Below, one piece after another: positions 21,724 through 30,367 of a stretch of 64,000 nt of DNA (the stretch's first letter is position 1; every line of letters starts with the position of its first letter). Location of the stretch: the NCBI GenBank assembly GCA_004143945.1, contig SEHB01000008.1:62001-126000 (forward strand), written 5' to 3'. The notes under the pieces are model-generated. The model had not been told where the DNA came from. It saw only the letters and a list, made by a program, of their open reading frames with translations, and made no database searches. The DNA comes from Lysobacteraceae bacterium (GTDB taxonomy: Bacteria > Pseudomonadota > Gammaproteobacteria > Xanthomonadales > Rhodanobacteraceae). Both the position numbers and the translations under genes were made by a program.

Positions 21724-23388
21724 TCAGCCTCCCCCGTCGAAACCGTCGGCGAACACGATGTCCGATCCCCACGGCAGCGTGAAGGAACCGCTCGCCGACG
21801 TGCTGCCCGCGAACGCGCTGTCGACCGCGCGCACGGTCCAGGCATACGCGCCGTCCGGAAGCTGCGCGATGCTCCAGCTCGTCGCGGTCGCGACGCTGCC
21901 CGGTTGCGGCAGGCGTTCGGGCAGCGTGAGCGGCACGCCGTCGCGCCAGAGCTCGAGATCGTAGGTGAGCTGCGCGGGCGGCGTGTGGTCGTCGCCGGCG
22001 CCGCTCCAGCCCATCGTCACGACGTCGCCGACGAGTTCGGCATGCAGGCCGGTCGGCGCCGCGGGCGCCGCGTTGATCGCCGGCGTGGTGTTGCGGAACA
22101 GATGCACCTGGGCTTCGACGAGGCCGTTGCCGCCCGGCACGTAGAAACCGCCCGCGACGAGGTAATCGAGGTCGCCGTCGCCATCGAGGTCGAACCAGTT
22201 GAACGCGCCGCCGCGACCGAGCGAACCGATCGGCGCCGGCAACTGCACGCCGAGCGACGTGAAGGCGCCGCCGTCGTTGCCGTAGATCTCGGACTTGCCG
22301 ACGATTTCCGCATTGCCGACATACGAGCCGGTCAGCAGCAGGTCGACGTCGCCATCGGAATCGTAGTCGGCCCAGGTGGCGGCGTTGAAGTCGAGCCAGT
22401 CGGCGTCCGGTGCCTGCACCAGCGTCTCGGGCACGTAGCTGCCGCCATCGTTGCGGTAGATGCGCAGCACCGTCTTGTAGGTGTCGTCGGTGTCGAGGAT
22501 GTTGCCCGCGACGAGGATGTCCGAATCGCCATCGGCATCGGGATCCCCGATGTCGGCGAGGCCATGCTCGATGCGGATCCCGAGCGGGTCGACCGGCGTG
22601 AAGGTGCCGGCATCGTTGTCATACAGCTTGACGCCGCCGGTCTTCATCAGCGGATCGACATTCGCGACGAACAGATCGAGGTCGCCGTCGGCGTCGTCGT
22701 CGATCCATGCGCTTTGCGCGTTGGTGGTCGGGTCGAGCGCGATCGCGCTGTCCGCGAACAGCCAGCCACCTGCACCGTCACTGCCGTCGTTGCGCACGAG
22801 CACGGTGCGGAACTCGAATGCGGCTTCGTCGTAGACCGAAGGCAGCAGCAGGTCGGGATCGCCATCGTTGTCGTAGTCGGCCCAGGTCGCCGAGCGCAGG
22901 TCGTAGGTGTCCTCGTAACCGGAATCCTCCCAGTAGGACGGCAGCGGCGTGTCGGTCCCGACGAGCGTGCCCGCGTCGTTGCGGTAGAGCACGGCCGCGC
23001 CTTCCGAAGCAACCAGCAGGTCGTGGTCGCCATCGCGGTCGTAGTCGGCCCAGGACAGGTCGGTCGCTCCCGCGAACACGCCGCCGAGCGGAACTTCCAC
23101 CGGCGTGAACGACCACCGCCCGCCCGCGCCTTCGCCCTCGTTGAGCAACAGCAGCAGCGTGTCGGTCACGCTCTCGTTGTAGACGACGTAGAAGCCCATG
23201 ACCGCGAGGTCGAGGTCGCCGTCGCCATCGACGTCGGCCGGCGCGATCGAGTTGATCCAGAAGTCGTCGGTATCGGGCGTGACGAACCACGGCCCTTCGG
23301 TCGGCGTCACCTCCTCGAACACCGGTTGCGCGGCGGCCGGCACGGCCAGCGCCGCGAGCAGCGCGAACAGCATCGCATTCGTCTTCAT
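21724..23388 (-). CDS. secreted FG-GAP/VCBS repeat protein with Fn3-like domain
   Basis: A 554-residue protein with signal peptide ([17 protein letters not shown]). From about residue 45 to 430 it has FG-GAP/VCBS repeats with Ca-binding loops of the type [40 protein letters not shown] and [10 protein letters not shown], implying an integrin-like beta-propeller. Residues about 440-540 resemble a fibronectin type III domain ([12 protein letters not shown], then WTVRAVDSA). It ends [15 protein letters not shown]: the shared signature plus three Gly-rich residues. ATG 23388 is chosen because the signal peptide begins there. Function is likely extracellular adhesion or binding, not an enzyme. Confidence 0.87.
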
Positions 23389-23602
23389 GGCAGTCTTCCC
23401 GCGGGCATCGCCCGGCATGCGTGCCGGCCATCGTGCCGGCCCCCGTATTGGCTACCTCGCGCGGGTGCCGGGCAAGTGCGGCGTGGGGGAAACCGCCCAG
23501 TCCGCTTCAGTCGGCGGCAAGCTTCACGCGTGCGTGGACGAGCGCGAGGTGCGGCGACCGCGCCGTGGGCGGCGTTCAGTCCGCCGCCGCGGCGGCCGGC
23601 GC

Positions 23603-23608: not shown

Positions 23609-23654
23609 GCCGGCGCGCCATTCCGGCGTCTTCCGATCCAGAGGTCGTTTCCAC

Positions 23655-24299
23655 TTGGCTACGACGCAGAAGCGCGCTCCCGCGCGCAAGTCCGCAATGC
23701 CCAAGGCCGCCAAGGCCCCCGCCCGTGCGGCGAGCACCGCGGGCAAGCCCGCGTCGAAGGCGACGACCGCGGCGAAACGGCCGCCATCCCGCGCAGTCGT
23801 CAAGAAGGCGGCGCCGATGAAAAAGGCCGCCGCGGCAAAGAAGGCGGCTCCGGCGAAGAAGGTGGTCCAGCGCAGCGGCAAGGCCGTCGCGAAGGCCGGA
23901 CCCGCGAAATCGCCACGCGCCGCGCGTCCGAAAGTCGCGAAGGTGCTCGATGCAGCCGCGCGCCTGCACCAGCTCGTGCGCAACGCGCTCGAAGACCTCA
24001 AGGCGAAGGACATCAGCGAGATCGACGTGCGCGGCAAGAGCGGCGTGACCGACCTGCTCGTGATCGCGAGTGGCACCTCGTCGCGCCACGTGAAATCGAT
24101 CGCCGACGAGGTCGTGAAGAAGGCCAAGCAGGCCGGCATGCCGCCGATCGGCGTCGAAGGCCAGCGCGAAGCCGAATGGGTGCTGGTCGACCTCGGCGAC
24201 GTGATCGTGCACGTGATGCTGCCGCGCACGCGCGAGTTCTACGGCCTCGAACGCCTCTGGACCGTCGGCGACAGCGAACCGGAAATGCTCGCGGGCTGA
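23655..24299 (+). CDS. rsfS: ribosome silencing factor RsfS with Lys/Ala-rich N-terminal extension
   Basis: RsfS binds ribosomal protein L14 and blocks subunit joining under starvation. The conserved domain occupies about residues 98-212: [63 protein letters not shown] and [10 protein letters not shown]. Before it lie about 95 residues rich in Lys, Ala and Pro ([19 protein letters not shown]), like histone H1 tails, absent from ordinary RsfS (about 110-130 residues). The best start is TTG 23655 with GAGG 10 bases upstream; ATG 23697 would remove 14 residues and keep the tail. rlmH follows as in most genomes. Confidence 0.93.
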
Positions 24300-24440
24300 G
24301 GCTCCAGCGTCGCGGCGTGGCCGTTCGCCTGCGCAGCGGCCGCAGCCCAATCATCTGTGGCGCAGCGGGACTGGGTCGAAGACCGCAAGGGGGCCGCTCC
24401 TGATCGTGCTCTTGATCCTGACGCTTCGACGCGCCCGCGC

Positions 24441-24911
24441 ATGAAGACACGCCTGATCTCCGTCGGCGAACGCATGCCCGCCTGGGTGGCCGACGGCTTC
24501 GCCGAGTACGTGAAGCGCCTCTCGCGGGAACTGCCCCTCGACCTCGTCGAAATCCCGCTCGGCGCACGCGGCAAGGGCCGCGATCCCGCGCGCGCGATCG
24601 CCGAAGAAGGCAGCGCGGTGCTCGCCGCGATCCCGAAGGACAGCCACGTCGTCGCACTCGACGGCCATGGCAAGCCCTGGTCCAGCGAGCAGCTCGCCGA
24701 AGAACTCGCGCGCTGGCGCATGCAGGGCCGCGATCTCGCGATCCTCGTCGGTGGTCCCGACGGTCACTCGCCCGATGTCCTCGCGCGCGCCGGCCAGCGC
24801 TGGTCGCTCGGTCCGCTGACCTTGCCGCACATGCTCGTGCGACTCGTCGTCGCCGAGCAGCTCTATCGCGCGGTCTCGATCAATGCGGGGCATCCCTACC
24901 ATCGCGCGTGA
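24441..24911 (+). CDS. rlmH: 23S rRNA pseudouridine-1915 N3-methyltransferase RlmH
   Basis: A 156-residue SPOUT methyltransferase that modifies pseudouridine 1915 in helix 69 of 23S rRNA. It starts KTRLISVGERMPAWV and ends with the trefoil-knot SAM site: ILVGGPDGHSPDVL, WSLGPLTLPHMLVRLVVAEQLYRA split over residues about 120-144, and GHPYHR at the C-terminus. Length is exactly that of the family. It follows rsfS with a 141-base gap. Confidence 0.97.
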   Translation: MKTRLISVGERMPAWVADGFAEYVKRLSRELPLDLVEIPLGARGKGRDPARAIAEEGSAVLAAIPKDSHVVALDGHGKPWSSEQLAEELARWRMQGRDLAILVGGPDGHSPDVLARAGQRWSLGPLTLPHMLVRLVVAEQLYRAVSINAGHPYHRA

Positions 24912-25012
24912 TGGCGCCTGCGCGCAGGCGTGCACCTGCTGCAGGTCGAAGGCGACATGTCGATCTCGTGCACGGACGATCGTCGGTCCGATATCCACCC
25001 CGGAGCCCGCCC

Positions 25013-25438
25013 ATGTCCCGCATGCTGTTCGCCAGCCTCCCCGTGACCGACCTCAAGGCCTCGATCGCGTTCTACGAGGGGCTCGGATTCACCAACAACG
25101 CGCAGTTCACCGACGAGACCGCGACCTGCATGGTCTGGAGCGAGTCGGTGTTCGTGATGGTGCTGACGCACGAGAAGTGGCGCAGCTTCACGACGCGCCC
25201 GATTCCGCCGCCGACCTCGAGCGAGCTGATGCTTGCGCTGACGTTCGACAGCCGCGCGGAGGTGGACGCATTCCACGATGCCGCGGTGCGAGGCGGCGGC
25301 ACGCCCGACGTGAACCCGATCGGCGACTACGGTTTCATGTACAGCCGCTCGACGACCGACCTCGACGGCCACCTCTGGGAAGCGGTCTGGATGGACATGG
25401 AAGCGATGGCCGCGCAGCAGCCGCCCGCAGCGGCGTAG
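25013..25438 (+). CDS. VOC (glyoxalase/bleomycin resistance-like) family protein
   Basis: A 141-residue single VOC-fold protein: FASLPVTDLKASIAFYEGLG at the N-terminus (first beta-alpha-beta unit), then MVWSESVFVMVLTHEKW, the second unit LALTFDSRAEVDAFHDAAV and a C-terminal DLDGHLWEAVWMDM, which supplies the usual late metal ligand. These resemble uncharacterised lactoylglutathione lyase-like proteins. Substrate is unknown. It stands alone, convergent with the HAF gene, and both end at a shared hairpin. Confidence 0.9.
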   Translation: MSRMLFASLPVTDLKASIAFYEGLGFTNNAQFTDETATCMVWSESVFVMVLTHEKWRSFTTRPIPPPTSSELMLALTFDSRAEVDAFHDAAVRGGGTPDVNPIGDYGFMYSRSTTDLDGHLWEAVWMDMEAMAAQQPPAAA

Positions 25439-25457
25439 CCGCGTGCGCGCAGCCCGC

Positions 25458-25490
25458 TCGCGGCGCGCGAGGCGATTCCGCGCGCCGCGA
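25458..25490. terminator. bidirectional hairpin between convergent genes
   Basis: TCGCGGCGCGCG (25458-25469) and CGCGCGCCGCGA (25479-25490) form a perfect 12-bp stem with a 9-base loop, centred between the rightward VOC gene and the leftward HAF gene. There is no T run on either side. Confidence 0.5.
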
Positions 25491-25495
25491 ATGGG

Positions 25496-26569
25496 TCACG
25501 GCGTGCCGTCGAATCCGTCGATGAAGACCACGTCGACGACCTCGGGTTCGAGGCGGATCACGTACGACTGCATCGCGGAGGGACCGAACGCCCAGCCGAC
25601 CAGCGTATTGCCGTCGGCCGAGATGCCCGTGAGGCCGCCGCTCATGTCCCAGCCCGCGGGGATCTCGATCGCGTGCTCGGCGAGGAAGTCGGAGAGCTTC
25701 ACGCTGCCGATGCCCTTGCGCCAGACCATCGGCGCGCGCGGCGGCACGTCGAAGAAGCCGGTGCTGCCGACCACGATATTGCCGTCGGCGCTGACGCCGA
25801 ACGCGAACGGCATGCCGGGCACGAGCTGCACGCCTTCGCCGGCGCTCCAGCGCCAGGCGCCCGATTCCTCCGGCGAAATGTAGTAGCTCGAGCCGACCAC
25901 GAACGCTCCGTCGGCACTGATGGCGCTCGCTTCGCCGACCGCGATGCCGTTGGCGTCCTGCACGTCCATCGGCACGCCGTCGATCCAGATCACGGCGGTG
26001 CGACCCCCGTCGTCCTGGTCGTTCCAGCCCGCGATGACGCGCCCATCCGCGCTGATCGCGTTCGCGCGCGAGTAGTTCGCGGGGCGGTTGACCGGCAGCG
26101 CGGTCATGCCCGCTGCGGCGGTCCACTGGTAGGCGATCGCGTCGCCCGCGAAGTCGTCCTCGAACGAGAGGCCGACCACGGTGTTGCCGTCGGATACGCC
26201 GTAGCCGGTCGCGTTGGTGTGCAGGGTTTGCGTCAGCAGCACCGGGTCGGCGCTGACCGGCGCGTAGGCGCCGAGGTCGCGCCCACCCTCGATCGTACCG
26301 CCATCCTCGGGGACGGATCCCGCGATCGTGCCCGCGTCGTTGATGCCCTGCGCGGAGTTGAGTGCGGTGAGCAGGTCTTCCGCGCCGGTCGCCGCGGTCC
26401 AGCGGAACGCCGCGGTGTAGGGGATCGAGCCGACCGCGTACTCGCCGTTCGGCGAAACGCCCGTCAGCTGCACGTTCGGCGTCTCGATCGGGATGAACAG
26501 CCCCGCGGCCTCGGCGGACGCGAGCGGGAACAGCGTGGAAACGGCAACGCAGAGCATCAGGCGACGCAT
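25496..26569 (-). CDS. secreted HAF-repeat protein
   Basis: A 357-residue protein with signal peptide (RRLMLCVAVSTLFPLASAEAA). The body has repeats of the HAF type: GVSPNGEYAVGS..AFRW, GINDAGTIAGS, AISADGRVIAGW, AISADGAFVVGS, GVSADGNIVVGS and GISADGNTLVGWAFG, alternating with aromatic strand ends (AFRW, AYQW, AWRW). This predicts a beta-propeller. It ends VVDVVFIDGFDGTP, the shared signature with three trailing residues. The role is unknown but extracellular. The upstream region to 26896 is non-coding. Confidence 0.87.
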   Translation of the reverse strand: MRRLMLCVAVSTLFPLASAEAAGLFIPIETPNVQLTGVSPNGEYAVGSIPYTAAFRWTAATGAEDLLTALNSAQGINDAGTIAGSVPEDGGTIEGGRDLGAYAPVSADPVLLTQTLHTNATGYGVSDGNTVVGLSFEDDFAGDAIAYQWTAAAGMTALPVNRPANYSRANAISADGRVIAGWNDQDDGGRTAVIWIDGVPMDVQDANGIAVGEASAISADGAFVVGSSYYISPEESGAWRWSAGEGVQLVPGMPFAFGVSADGNIVVGSTGFFDVPPRAPMVWRKGIGSVKLSDFLAEHAIEIPAGWDMSGGLTGISADGNTLVGWAFGPSAMQSYVIRLEPEVVDVVFIDGFDGTP

Positions 26570-26896
26570 GGAAAACCCCCGGCAGCAAGACGATGGACAC
26601 CCGTGGCCGCAGCGACGGCGCGCAGGTGCCGCAAGCGTGGTGCATCGGCCGCGCGCGCGGGCTCGCGCAGCGATCGCGGCGCATTCGCGCTGCATTCGCG
26701 CGCGCTGCAGGTGATTGATCCGCAAGGGCATGTGCCGGAGTGATCGAAATGGTATGCGCGTGCGTCGCGGACAGGCACGCGCGCCTGCAGGCGCGCCTCG
26801 AATGGGGCGCAGGCAGACGCTCGGCGACCCGCGGATTCGAATCTGTCGTCGAAGATCGCATCGCCGCACGAAGCATCTCGCCGCGGTTGCGCAGGT
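26570..26896. other. non-coding gap with one palindrome
   Basis: No credible gene on either strand. GCGCGCC (26779-26785), TGCA and GGCGCGC (26790-26796) form a perfect palindrome that could end the leftward M23/pyrC/yidD transcript. The promoter of the HAF gene should lie in 26570-26700; no clear boxes are seen. Confidence 0.4.
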
Positions 26897-27742
26897 TCAG
26901 TCGCGGGCGAGCAGCAGCAGCGGATCGAGCCGCGTGTCGAACCAGTTGAGGCCCCAGTGCAGGTGCGGGCCGCTCGCGCGCCCGGTCTTGCCGACCGCGC
27001 CGATGACCTCGCCCTGTTCGACGCGATCGCCGGCCTTCACGTCGATGCGCAAGAGGTGCAGGAAGTTCGAGCTGACGCCGTGCCCGTGGTCGATCAGCAG
27101 CGTGCCACCGGTGAGGTAGAGGTCGGCGTCGACGAAGGTGACGATGCCGCCGGCCGGCGCCTTGACCGGCGTGCCTTCGGGGGCCGCGATGTCCATGCCC
27201 GAATGCGGCGACTTCGGTACGTCGTGGCCGTCGACGACATACACGCGCTGGTTGCCGAAGCGGCCGCTGATGCGCCCCTGCAGCGGCCACGTGAAGCGCG
27301 CGAGGAAGTCGCTGCGCGCGTCGTCGCGCGCGCGCGCGGCCACCACCCGTGCCTGTTCGCGCCTGATCCGCTCCGCGACCTCCGGCGGAGGCTCGACCGT
27401 CTTCGGCGGCACGCCGACGACGCGTTCGGTCGGCCACTCGCGCGCGACCACCTCGATCGCGATGCGCTCGGGCGTGCCGTCGGCATGCCGCACGTCGACC
27501 TCGGCCGGGCCACGCGCGTCGCGGCCGATGCCGAACACGACCTCGCCGCGTGCGGTGACGCGCAGGTCGCGGCCGCCGAACGTCACGCGACTGCCGGGTT
27601 CGACATGCGCGACGACGAGGCTGCCCTGCGGCACCGCGCGCGGCCAGGCGGGGACCGATGGCGCGGGTGCGGCGATCGCGGATGCGGCAAGCAGGAGTGC
27701 AGCGGCGAGGACGGGCGCGAGGCGCGGGCGCCGCGTCGTCAT
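26897..27742 (-). CDS. M23 family metallopeptidase
   Basis: A 281-residue exported peptidase: signal peptide (APVLAAALLLAASAIAAPA), then a beta-rich N-terminal region and the LytM/M23 domain from about residue 150. The zinc ligands are visible: HSGMD (His180, Asp184) and HLH (260-262, in SGPHLHWGLNWF). All active-site residues are present, so it probably cleaves peptidoglycan cross-bridges or stem peptides in the periplasm. Its ATG overlaps the stop of pyrC (27739-27742), so it is coupled to a pyrimidine gene, an arrangement also known in Xanthomonas relatives. Confidence 0.93.
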   Translation of the reverse strand: MTTRRPRLAPVLAAALLLAASAIAAPAPSVPAWPRAVPQGSLVVAHVEPGSRVTFGGRDLRVTARGEVVFGIGRDARGPAEVDVRHADGTPERIAIEVVAREWPTERVVGVPPKTVEPPPEVAERIRREQARVVAARARDDARSDFLARFTWPLQGRISGRFGNQRVYVVDGHDVPKSPHSGMDIAAPEGTPVKAPAGGIVTFVDADLYLTGGTLLIDHGHGVSSNFLHLLRIDVKAGDRVEQGEVIGAVGKTGRASGPHLHWGLNWFDTRLDPLLLLARD

Positions 27743-29073
27743 CGCGCGAACTCGAGCCGCTGGCCGCGCACGCCGTCGTCGATCGTGCCGTCGCGGTAAG
27801 CGAGCTCGCCGTTGACGAACGTGGCCGCGATCGTCGATCGGAACGTGTAGCCGTCGAACGGCGTCCAGCCGCATTTCGACAGCACCTCGGATGCGCGCGC
27901 AACGTGCGGCGTGTGCGGATCGACGAGCACGAGGTCGGCGTGGTAACCCTCGCGCAGGAATCCGCGCTCGCGCACGTCGAACAGCGTCGCCGGCGCGTGC
28001 ATGGCGGCCTCGACCACGCGCTCCAGCCGCAACTCGCCGTCGAACACGCGTTCGAGCGCGCACTGCAGCGCGTACTGCACGAGCGGCAGGCCCGAGGGCG
28101 CGCGCGTGTACGGCTGCGCCTTCTCCTCGGCGAGGTGCGGGGCGTGGTCGGTCGCGAGCACGTCGAGGCGGCCTTCGGCGAGCGCGCGCGTGATCGCGAC
28201 GCGATCGGCCTCGGTCTTGATCGCGGGATTGCACTTGATCAGGTGGCCGAGGCGTTCGTAGTCGGCATCGTTGAAGTGCAGGAAATGCACGCAGGTCTCG
28301 GCCGTGATGCGCTTGCCCGCGAGCGGGCCCGGTTCGAACAGCTCGCATTCGTCGGCGGTGGAGACGTGCAGCACGTGCAGGCGCGTGCCATGGCGCCGCG
28401 CGAGCGAAATCGCGAGCTGCGTCGACTTGATGCAGGCTTCGCGCGAGCGGATCAGCGGGTGCTGCGCTGCCGGGATGTCGTCGCCCCAGCGCGCACGCGC
28501 GGCCTCCTCGGCGGCGAGGATCATCGGCGTGTCTTCGCAGTGCGTGATGATCGGCACCGGCGTGTCGCGGAAGATCGCATCGAGCGTCGCCGGATCGTCG
28601 ACCAGCATGTTGCCGGTCGACGCGCCCATGAACACCTTGATGCCGGGCGCCGCCTTCGGGTCGAGCGTGCGGATCGCCTCGAGGTTGTCGTTCGTCGCGC
28701 CGAGGTAGAACGCGTAATTGACGCGCGACACTTCCGCGGCGCGCGCGTACTTCGCCTCGAGCGCGGCATGATCGGTCGCGGGCGGCTTCGTGTTCGGCAT
28801 CTCCATGAAGCTCGTGATGCCGCCCGCGAGGCAGGCGCGCGATTCGCTCTCGATGTCGGCCTTGTGCGTGAGGCCGGGTTCGCGGAAGTGCACCTGGTCG
28901 TCGATCATGCCGGGCAGCAGCCACAGCCCGGAGGCGTCGAACTCGCGTTCGCCATCGCGCGCCTGCAGTGCTTCGCCGATCTCGACGATGCGGCCATCGC
29001 GGACGCGCAGGTCCGCGCTGCGGCGCCGTCCCTCGTTGACGAGTTCGGCGTGCGTGATCAGCCAGTCAGTCAT
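27739..29073 (-). CDS. pyrC: dihydroorotase
   Basis: A 444-residue amidohydrolase of de novo pyrimidine synthesis (carbamoyl-aspartate to dihydroorotate). Typical stretches are LLPGMIDDQVHFREPGLTHK, FMEMPNTKPPATD, KVFMGASTGNMLV (the Lys region), PIITHCEDTP, LHVLHVST and LATDHAPH. In the first metal motif the usual D-x-H-x-H reads DDQVH, with Gln in place of the first His; this variant is typical of this long DHOase subgroup. ATG 29073 has GAAGAAG upstream and overlaps the end of yidD by 8 bases. Confidence 0.95.
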   Translation of the reverse strand: MTDWLITHAELVNEGRRRSADLRVRDGRIVEIGEALQARDGEREFDASGLWLLPGMIDDQVHFREPGLTHKADIESESRACLAGGITSFMEMPNTKPPATDHAALEAKYARAAEVSRVNYAFYLGATNDNLEAIRTLDPKAAPGIKVFMGASTGNMLVDDPATLDAIFRDTPVPIITHCEDTPMILAAEEAARARWGDDIPAAQHPLIRSREACIKSTQLAISLARRHGTRLHVLHVSTADECELFEPGPLAGKRITAETCVHFLHFNDADYERLGHLIKCNPAIKTEADRVAITRALAEGRLDVLATDHAPHLAEEKAQPYTRAPSGLPLVQYALQCALERVFDGELRLERVVEAAMHAPATLFDVRERGFLREGYHADLVLVDPHTPHVARASEVLSKCGWTPFDGYTFRSTIAATFVNGELAYRDGTIDDGVRGQRLEFAR

Positions 29074-29335
29074 CGGCGTCTTCTTCGGAGTGGGGGTGGC
29101 AGCGTTGCGGACGCAGGCTGAATTGGAACGGTACCGGATCGAGTCCGCCCGCGCACAGCGGCTGGCAACGCAGGATGCGCCAGAACCCGAGCCAGCTCCC
29201 GCGCGCGCCGCCGAACCGCGCGATCGCGATGCGCGCATACTCCGAGCAGCTCGGATGGAAACGGCAGCGGTTGCCCAGCAACGGGCTCAGCATGCGCTGG
29301 TAACAATGGATCAGGAAGATCAGCGGACTGGCCAT
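29066..29335 (-). CDS. yidD: membrane protein insertion efficiency factor YidD
   Basis: An 89-residue protein with the YidD signature LIHCYQRMLSPLLGNRCRFH followed by PSCSEYA, an amphipathic helix and further Cys (RCQPLCAGG). It assists YidC-dependent insertion of inner membrane proteins. It usually sits in rpmH-rnpA-yidD-yidC. Here it heads a leftward unit with pyrC and an M23 peptidase and overlaps pyrC. Divergent from dksA. Confidence 0.95.
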   Translation of the reverse strand: MASPLIFLIHCYQRMLSPLLGNRCRFHPSCSEYARIAIARFGGARGSWLGFWRILRCQPLCAGGLDPVPFQFSLRPQRCHPHSEEDADD

Positions 29336-29390
29336 CGTGCGGTCGCGGCGACCGCGTGCAAGCGCGCGCCACGACGAGGCTTTTCGGCGG

Positions 29391-29419
29391 TTGCCGGGGT
29401 TCGGGACTTAGGCTATAAC
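29391..29419 (+). promoter_or_regulatory. sigma-70 promoter of dksA
   Basis: TTGCCG (29391-29396), a 17-base spacer and TATAAC (29414-29419). The predicted transcription start is near 29426, leaving a short leader before the dksA start. Confidence 0.7.
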
Positions 29420-29452
29420 ACGCGACCGCCGCGTCACAAGATGGATTTCGGA

Positions 29453-30367
29453 ATGGCGAAGAGCAAACCGGTTGCAGCCACTCGCGCGAAGGCGTCGAAG
29501 GCGCCAGCGCGCCCCGCCGCAGTCAGCGCGCGCAAGGCGACGTCGAAATCCGCTGCGTCGGCGAAGCCGGCGAAGAAGCCGGTCGCGCCGAAGAAGGCCG
29601 CGGCGAAGGCCACGCGTCCTGCACCCGTGAAGAAGGCCGCGCCTGCGAAGAAGCCGGCCGCGAAGCCCGTGCCTGCGAAGAAGGCCGTGCCGGTGAAGAA
29701 GCCGGCACCGGCGAAGAAGGCGGCGCCCGCGAAGGCCGCAGCCGCGAAGAAGCCGGCGCCCGTGAAGGCGGCGCCGCAGAAGACACCGGCGCCGAGCGCG
29801 GCGCCATCGGCAAGAAGTGCACCATCAGTCGGGAATTCAGTGACCACGAGCAAGCCGCAAACCACCGCCAGGGCCGAGAAATCGTCCCGGACGCCCCCCG
29901 CGATCGAAGCGGGCGTGACGATGCAGGATGGCCGCTACGCGCTGCCGCCGACCGTCACGATCGACCTGCCCGACGGCTACAAGCCGTTGGCGAAAGAGGA
30001 GTACATGAGCCCGCGCCAGCTCCAGTACTTCCGCAACAAGCTGTCCGGCTGGCGCGCCGACCTCGTCGAGGAAAGTCGCCAGACGATCGAGAGCCTGCGC
30101 GACGAAGTGCGTGACGTCGGCGACGAAGCCGAGCGTGCCACGCGCGAGACCGAGAACTCGCTCGAGCTGCGCACGCGCGACCGCTACCGCAAGCTCATCG
30201 CGAAGATCGACAAGGCGCTCAAGCGCATCGAGGAAGGCCGCTACGGCTTCTGCGAGGAAACCGACGAGGAGATCGGCATCGATCGCCTCGAAGCACGCCC
30301 GATCGCGACGCTGAGCCTCGACGCCCAGGAACGCTGGGAACATCGCCAGAAGCAGATGGGCGATTGA
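29453..30367 (+). CDS. dksA: RNA polymerase-binding protein DksA with H1-like N-terminal extension
   Basis: A 304-residue protein; the DksA domain is the last 150 residues. The coiled coil ([20 protein letters not shown], then [19 protein letters not shown] with an acidic tip) enters the RNA polymerase secondary channel and works with ppGpp on rRNA promoters. The zinc-finger region reads [25 protein letters not shown], keeping one of four Cys (C-T-S-A type). About 110 N-terminal residues are Lys/Ala/Pro repeats ([13 protein letters not shown]), like histone H1. ATG 29453 or 29441 could be the start. The promoter is at 29391-29419. Confidence 0.93.

Follow-up and report, generated by a model that had tools for sequence, protein, structure and literature searches.

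The RsfS and DksA proteins encoded in the DNA analysed here each carry a long N-terminal tail rich in lysine, alanine and proline ahead of a conserved core. These tails are probably disordered polycation arms with separate histories in the two proteins, for which a role as a non-specific electrostatic tether is the most likely explanation. The window, meaning the whole analysed stretch of 64,000 nucleotides, lies on contig SEHB01000008.1 of a Lysobacteraceae bacterium and contains the following features.

23641..23644, + strand: Shine-Dalgarno-like GAGG ahead of the RsfS TTG, recognised from the sequence.
23655-24299, + strand: RsfS gene, TTG start to stop, 214 aa.
23655..23951, + strand: K/A/P-rich N-terminal tail of RsfS, 99 codons from the TTG start, net charge +27; unstructured and of low confidence in the structure model.
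23952..24299, + strand: RsfS core with stop codon, placed by PF02410/TIGR00090 and by alignment to solved RsfS chains.
29453-30367, + strand: DksA gene, ATG start to stop, 304 aa.
29453..29983, + strand: DksA N-terminal extension of 177 codons, consisting of K/A/P-rich tail and linker; 153 residues lie beyond the 1tjl chain, and confidence in the model is low.
29632..29793, + strand: imperfect 33-bp tandem repeat within the DksA tail.
29984..30367, + strand: DksA core with stop codon, placed by PF21157, TIGR02420 and alignment to 1tjl.
30251..30325, + strand: degenerate zinc-finger part of DksA, with Cys, Thr, Ser and Ala at the positions of the four Cys of the 1tjl chain.

The window RsfS matches PF02410 over residues 108-202 with 114.7 bits (cut-off 21.6) and TIGR00090 over model positions 2-99 of 99 with 123.6 bits (curated cut-off 56.9), and is accordingly assigned to RsfS. 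The window DksA is assigned to DksA by a score of 143.7 bits against TIGR02420 (curated cut-off 115.5); its score of 120.8 bits against the E. coli-type DksA model NF008045 is under the curated cut-off of 289. Residue 174 of the window DksA pairs with residue 21 of the 1tjl chain, which we take to be E. coli DksA, so that the extension amounts to 153 aa. The lysine-rich segment of this protein spans 149 aa with 30 lysines, and the 177 residues ahead of its core have a net charge of +34. In RsfS, 20 lysines and 8 arginines against a single acidic residue account for the charge of the tail, and the core has a net charge of −3. The initial annotation had described N-terminal tails of about 95 residues on RsfS and about 110 on DksA; both tails are real and the first length is close to the 99 found, whereas the second is too short.

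The RsfS tail is unlikely to be an artefact of start-codon choice, given the recurrence of the TTG codon: in each of the 17 family genomes that have the tail, including the window's, it begins with TTG, the candidates having been chosen by eye among the possible starts. Upstream of this codon GAGG is found in 13 of the 17 and a shorter purine match in the other 4. TTG also heads the extension in three short-tailed genomes (genera g2 and g17), and across these 20 genomes the distance from TTG to the core ranges from 18 to 133 codons. When RsfS is read from the TTG, M1 and T3 are invariant among 20 aligned sequences. The recurrence in all 17 tailed genomes makes it very likely that the tail is translated, and since its start and the core are both fixed, the tail lies between two constant points. 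For DksA, a MAK start heads most, not all, of the 26 genus examples in the family, and in an alignment of 22 sequences M1 and K3 are invariant and A2 nearly so.

Structure prediction is suggestive of intrinsic disorder in both tails. In AlphaFold models with family alignments of 22 (DksA) and 20 (RsfS) sequences as inputs, neither tail has secondary structure; mean pLDDT in 10-residue blocks is 32-49 over residues 1-160 of DksA and 39-47 over residues 1-90 of RsfS, compared with 94 and 89 in the best core blocks, respectively. Prediction is good for the RsfS core and for the coiled coil of DksA, but poor for the zinc-finger end of DksA (pLDDT 51-70). Since confidence in the whole models is modest (DksA mean pLDDT 55, pTM 0.24; RsfS 62 and 0.45), the low tail pLDDT suggests disorder rather than proving it. 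The earlier proposal that the tails lie outside the core fold agrees with this predicted disorder and with the existence of untailed orthologues.

The composition of the tails compared with that of the cores is far from chance. In the family, 76 DksA tails average 22.9% K, 29.4% A, 13.5% P and about 1% D+E, and the corresponding cores 4.8% K and 24.9% D+E; the 17 RsfS tails average 22.2% K, 30.0% A, 12.7% P and about 0.8% D+E, and the cores 5.4% K and 16.3% D+E. The histone H1-like character originally attributed to both tails is thus borne out as a K/A/P-rich composition in which acidic residues are scarce. The HC2 histone H1-like model PF07382 scores 14.0 bits on DksA against a gathering cut-off of 40, with no match listed for RsfS, and the Burkholderia-type histone H1-like model NF038053 scores 17.6 bits on DksA against a curated cut-off of 80.

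Composition is kept while sequence drifts, as indicated by tail identities of 28-76% within RsfS pairs having core identities of 66-98%. Length varies from 53 to 126 aa in RsfS tails of the family and from 53 to 266 aa in DksA tails, the DksA minimum being clipped by a contig end. Of the conservation in length and charge expected among close relatives, charge and the scarcity of acidic residues are therefore retained and length is not. Such length variation, together with the tandem DNA repeat in part of the DksA tail, by which slippage expansion may shape that tail, would be expected if the tails were near-neutral by-products, namely the outcome of in-frame slippage in repetitive DNA, which the ends of proteins tolerate, with only mild selection against acidic residues. 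We regard this explanation as unlikely, in part because of the pattern of lysine replacement. Single-base lysine differences number 137 for K/R and 20 for K/E among 102 within-genus DksA pairs, and 19 and 2, respectively, among 28 within-genus RsfS pairs; the pairs overlap in ancestry and the repeat alignments are ambiguous, and the counts thus indicate a direction and not a rate. K/R and K/E differences alike need one A-G change, yet K/R dominates, and this excess points to selection for positive charge.

The distribution of the tails differs between the two proteins. In the named-locus, family and class counts a tail was scored where the best segment had at least 10 K, at least 40 residues and at least 12% K. 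In a family sample of 78 genomes from 26 genera, all 76 readable DksA genes encode a tail (in the remaining two genomes DksA is broken between contigs, G055, or has no match over the cut-off, G077), whereas RsfS, found in 77 genomes, is tailed in 17 and untailed in 60. The RsfS tail occurs in all sampled members of four genera. In a tree of the RsfS and DksA cores from 75 genomes, the 17 tailed genomes and one short-tailed genome (g17) form a single clade with support of 100/98, so that 17 of the clade's 18 sampled genomes have the tail. Among 80 named RsfS loci, 21 have a tail by the criterion, and L048 additionally has an extension with 9 lysines; the tailed loci include Dokdonella (3/3), Rudaea (3/3) and one of 17 from Rhodanobacter (L007, a MAG). 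DksA was not found within the sequence stretches of these 80 loci. The 60 untailed family genomes indicate that the tail is dispensable for RsfS in general, as near-neutral by-products would be; the nearly complete retention of the RsfS tail within its clade and the presence of the DksA tail in every readable family genome argue against such an origin.

Beyond the family, tails within the order were judged from sequences in the genes read and the remaining DksA genes of the order by open frames only. A DksA tail is present in all 16 genes read from three further families, f2 (7), f3 (3) and f4 (6), and absent from the three that were read in f5 and f8. Genome G082 (f6) encodes a DksA with a long extension containing 32 lysines plus 22 acidic residues, and G097 (f12) has an RsfS tail but a short, mixed-charge DksA N-terminus. 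In a class sample of 114 genomes, 106 have a DksA match and 47 an open frame of at least 200 aa; 35 of the 46 frames read are tailed, which with the window gives at least 36 of 106 genomes, a lower bound given that the other 59 genes have frames under 200 aa (one not listed). The best segments of these 35 tails comprise 54-296 residues. GC content of the tailed DksA stretches read in the class sample ranges from 0.34 to 0.67, the window's being about 0.69, and the occurrence of DksA tails in low-GC stretches (0.34-0.45) is a further point against a by-product of repeat expansion. Beyond the family, RsfS was found 79 times and read in 28 cases, of which 7 are tailed (5 of the 7 read in f4, G097 in f12, and G146); this count too is a lower bound, the 51 unread genes having frames of 112-161 aa.

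The initial annotation had proposed that the similar tails pair RsfS and DksA as two growth-arrest factors through a shared tag that takes them to a common condensate or target. The two proteins are indeed alike in composition in 17 family genomes, and both are tailed in the four f4 genomes in which both were read (G080, G091, G100 and G114) and in G146. This proposal is nevertheless not supported in view of the differing distributions, with a DksA tail in 76/76 family genomes against an RsfS tail in 17/77 confined to one clade. Outside the order, RsfS could be judged in 31 of 34 DksA-tailed genomes (24 from the sequence read and 7 from the shortness of the open frame, 112-158 aa) and is tailed in only one, indicating that a DksA tail does not predict an RsfS tail; G097 is the reverse case. 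RsfS tails were found in none of 30 class genomes with a DksA frame under 200 aa, these DksA genes being taken as untailed from frame length, and RsfS tails are too rare in the class and order samples to reveal a weak association. With like tails also present on other proteins of the genome, as described below, and the two genes not in one operon, we consider a shared tag highly improbable.

Gene linkage as the cause of the shared tails is likewise unsupported. The genes are 6 kb apart in the window; in 48 relatives with both genes on one contig they are separated by 17-75 kb in 34 and lie further apart in 14. These figures come from a table of 50 genomes out of the 75 that have both genes; since the genomes were chosen mainly for one-contig location, the one-contig share is meaningless. 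A genome-wide enrichment of tails in the RsfS-tailed genera was not seen with the KKxxxKK pattern, whose counts, unscaled for genome size, are 22-45 in 9 genomes of these genera versus 18-94 in 22 others. Counts from a reversed-pattern control approach the real ones in several genomes; because the lysine-pair motif is nearly its own reverse, this control is not independent.

Pattern searches of the window's genome, followed by reading of the frames and a Pfam scan, revealed C-terminal tails on TopA (C25:551370) and MetJ (C22:77014), an N-terminal tail on a GNAT acetyltransferase (C17:414659), and four mostly tail-like, stand-alone H1-like proteins (C13:287830, C13:288236, C18:28307 and C25:264298). 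One of the four passes the HC2 cut-off; the PF07382 match of L102 in this genome reaches 41.0 bits against a cut-off of 40. As the pattern searches need dense lysine pairs, the list of tailed proteins is a minimum. Not counted as tails were a contig 28 match in a 20-codon frame, uS19 (C19), a small K/E-rich frame (C17:30845) and a match in C27. The survey of the genome envisaged at the outset largely counts against a shared tag, in that tails do occur on unrelated proteins, which would also suit near-neutral by-products, though not obviously at random. Like arms on TopA, MetJ and stand-alone H1-like proteins argue for a generic accessory and not for a growth-arrest label. Two of the three tailed proteins with a known partner domain handle DNA, and the GNAT protein does not obviously do so. 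The GNAT tail misfits a rule of nucleic-acid association, an observation that runs against a tether.

The RsfS core docks on the 50S subunit, and the DksA core in the RNA polymerase secondary channel. With a non-specific electrostatic tether as the preferred explanation, a flexible chain with a charge of +27 to +34 would interact weakly, and in a salt-sensitive way, with rRNA, DNA or nascent RNA. The RsfS arm would add rRNA contacts close to where RsfS docks on the large subunit, and the DksA arm would reach DNA or nascent RNA in the vicinity of the secondary channel or keep DksA on the nucleoid, each raising local concentration and residence time with core activity unchanged. Within the family the RsfS arm was probably gained once, close to the origin of the clade that the four tailed genera form, and it also occurs in a few lineages elsewhere; the DksA arm is shared by four families of the order and has a patchy distribution over the class, consistent with repeated gain or repeated loss. 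From the charge of the tails and from precedents we infer that the tails may bind nucleic acid (or polyphosphate), as well as the targets and effect of such binding. The precedents are the KPAA tails of AlgP/PhaF, which bind DNA and organise granules according to the accessible part of PMC9239181, the lysine repeats to which TopA processivity is linked in the available text of PMC7398561, and the eukaryotic-like tail of mycobacterial HupB as presented in the available section of PMC5676037.

Alternatively, the tails might be polyphosphate-responsive arms, such that polyphosphate accumulating in starvation would move or release RsfS and DksA and thereby tune growth arrest, a possibility that we judge to be rather unlikely. 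The window genome contains ppk1 (TIGR03705, 947 bits), although ppk1 is also present in 7 of 14 control genomes and its presence therefore says little. The accessible part of PMC9239181 places KPAA-tailed AlgP on polyphosphate granules, which it spaces in nitrogen-starved cells; the portion of PMC12077175 available describes polyphosphate binding by the lysine-rich ends of EngA and SrmB, and that of PMC12345225 new E. coli binders linked to translation and ribosome assembly. However, DksA and RsfS are unmentioned in the main text of the latter. The maximum lysine count per 20 residues is 7 in DksA and 8 in RsfS, compared with 9 in two binders and 5 and 7 in non-binders, in a published comparison of four proteins (PMC12077175, accessible portion).

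DksA has been studied mainly as a short E. coli zinc-finger protein. By the four-cysteine test the window DksA is not of this type (C, T, S and A), and every one of the 76 family DksA sequences retains only one or two of the four zinc cysteines. X. citri DksA is said to have a zinc-finger domain in the available part of PMC6804348. Besides the window DksA, no further match to the DksA model was found in the window genome; some relatives have additional weak matches that stay below the cut-off. A DksA bearing a polycationic arm, having a degenerate zinc finger in the family and being the only DksA found in the window genome, might constitute a distinct functional form that is held on nascent RNA or the nucleoid, is released by polyphosphate when cells starve and does not respond to zinc or to thiol oxidation, a speculation that we consider decidedly doubtful. 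If it were true, the textbook free-diffusing E. coli DksA would not be the rule. If about one third of gammaproteobacterial lineages have a long cationic DksA arm, models of the arrival of DksA at RNA polymerase and its departure may not transfer to them. The RsfS tail, present in one clade and absent from close relatives, provides a clean natural experiment.

Cationic tails are well known, but the placement on RsfS and the frequency on DksA look undescribed in the literature searched, in which no description of either tail was found and from which most subscription papers were out of reach. A close parallel may be drawn with histone H1-like AlgP/PhaF of Pseudomonas, which, in the accessible text of PMC9239181, likewise join a separate domain to a long, disordered tail of low complexity that is rich in K/A/P; those tails are C-terminal with a stricter KPAA repeat and another partner domain, whereas the RsfS and DksA tails are N-terminal. 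Actinobacterial TopA lysine repeats and mycobacterial HupB, as far as the accessible portions of their sources extend, similarly place a lysine-rich terminal arm on a conserved nucleic-acid-binding core, but in other hosts and on other cores, and function has been studied there. Solved RsfS structures (PDB 7bl2-7bl5, 9q40 and others) align with the whole window core, and the two best-matching chains, of 105 and 118 aa, are too short for such a tail. The core of E. coli DksA (1tjl) aligns over 130 residues with the window DksA, which differs in its 153 extra N-terminal residues and in the replacement of three of the four zinc cysteines. The 4ijj chain ('Putative C4-type zinc finger protein') is presumably P. 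aeruginosa DksA2. This DksA2 is a zinc-independent paralogue; the accessible part of PMC8456098 describes it as having a CxxT...CxxA motif and as able to substitute for DksA under zinc starvation, and in the alignment to 4ijj CxxT and xxA replace the CxxC pairs in both DksA2 and the window DksA. The window DksA is nonetheless nearer to the E. coli chain (108.8 bits) than to 4ijj (72.0 bits) and, unlike DksA2, has a tail and is accompanied by no second DksA-model match in its genome.

The rsfS and dksA genes lie 6 kb apart in the window, and the gap between them is at most 75 kb in 35 of the 49 genomes, a hand-picked set, tabulated for the family Rhodanobacteraceae with both genes on one contig. 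Their spacing is variable among the tabulated family genomes, and the two genes do not form an operon. The apparent start codon of RsfS, at window position 23655, is TTG, and it recurs in all six genera examined (g1, g2, g5, g9, g15 and g17 of the family sample). Two proteins are encoded in the window at these positions:

21724-23418, minus strand, apparently exported protein (signal-like start, by eye)
25496-26869, minus strand, second, different apparently exported protein (signal-like start, by eye)

Their C-terminal motifs, one of 10 residues and the other VFIDGFDGTP, are near-identical, and the common motif is possibly a sorting signal.

Lysine-rich tails like those of RsfS and DksA occur on other contigs of the genome: a K/A tail of ~70 residues (length by eye) at the C-terminus of the MetJ repressor (L098:1210-1680, contig 22), and a long N-terminal K/T/A/P tail on a GNAT acetyltransferase (L004:1126-2298, contig 17), which is no obvious nucleic-acid binder. 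An adjacent pair of H1-like proteins (L086 and L085, contig 13) is mostly tail-like, one having a short N-terminal part that resembles, by eye, a phasin-type helix. In genomes G175 (locus L354) and G082 (L279), the N-terminal DksA extensions combine many lysines with many acidic residues and may represent a version of the tail with mixed charge.

Counted against the four zinc-finger cysteines of E. coli DksA (PDB 1tjl), three are gone from the DksA of the window (30251-30325, residues 267-291), which is the single match to the DksA model in its genome, and at least two are missing from every one of the 76 family DksA sequences printed. These losses suggest that the main DksA of the whole family is a zinc-independent form.
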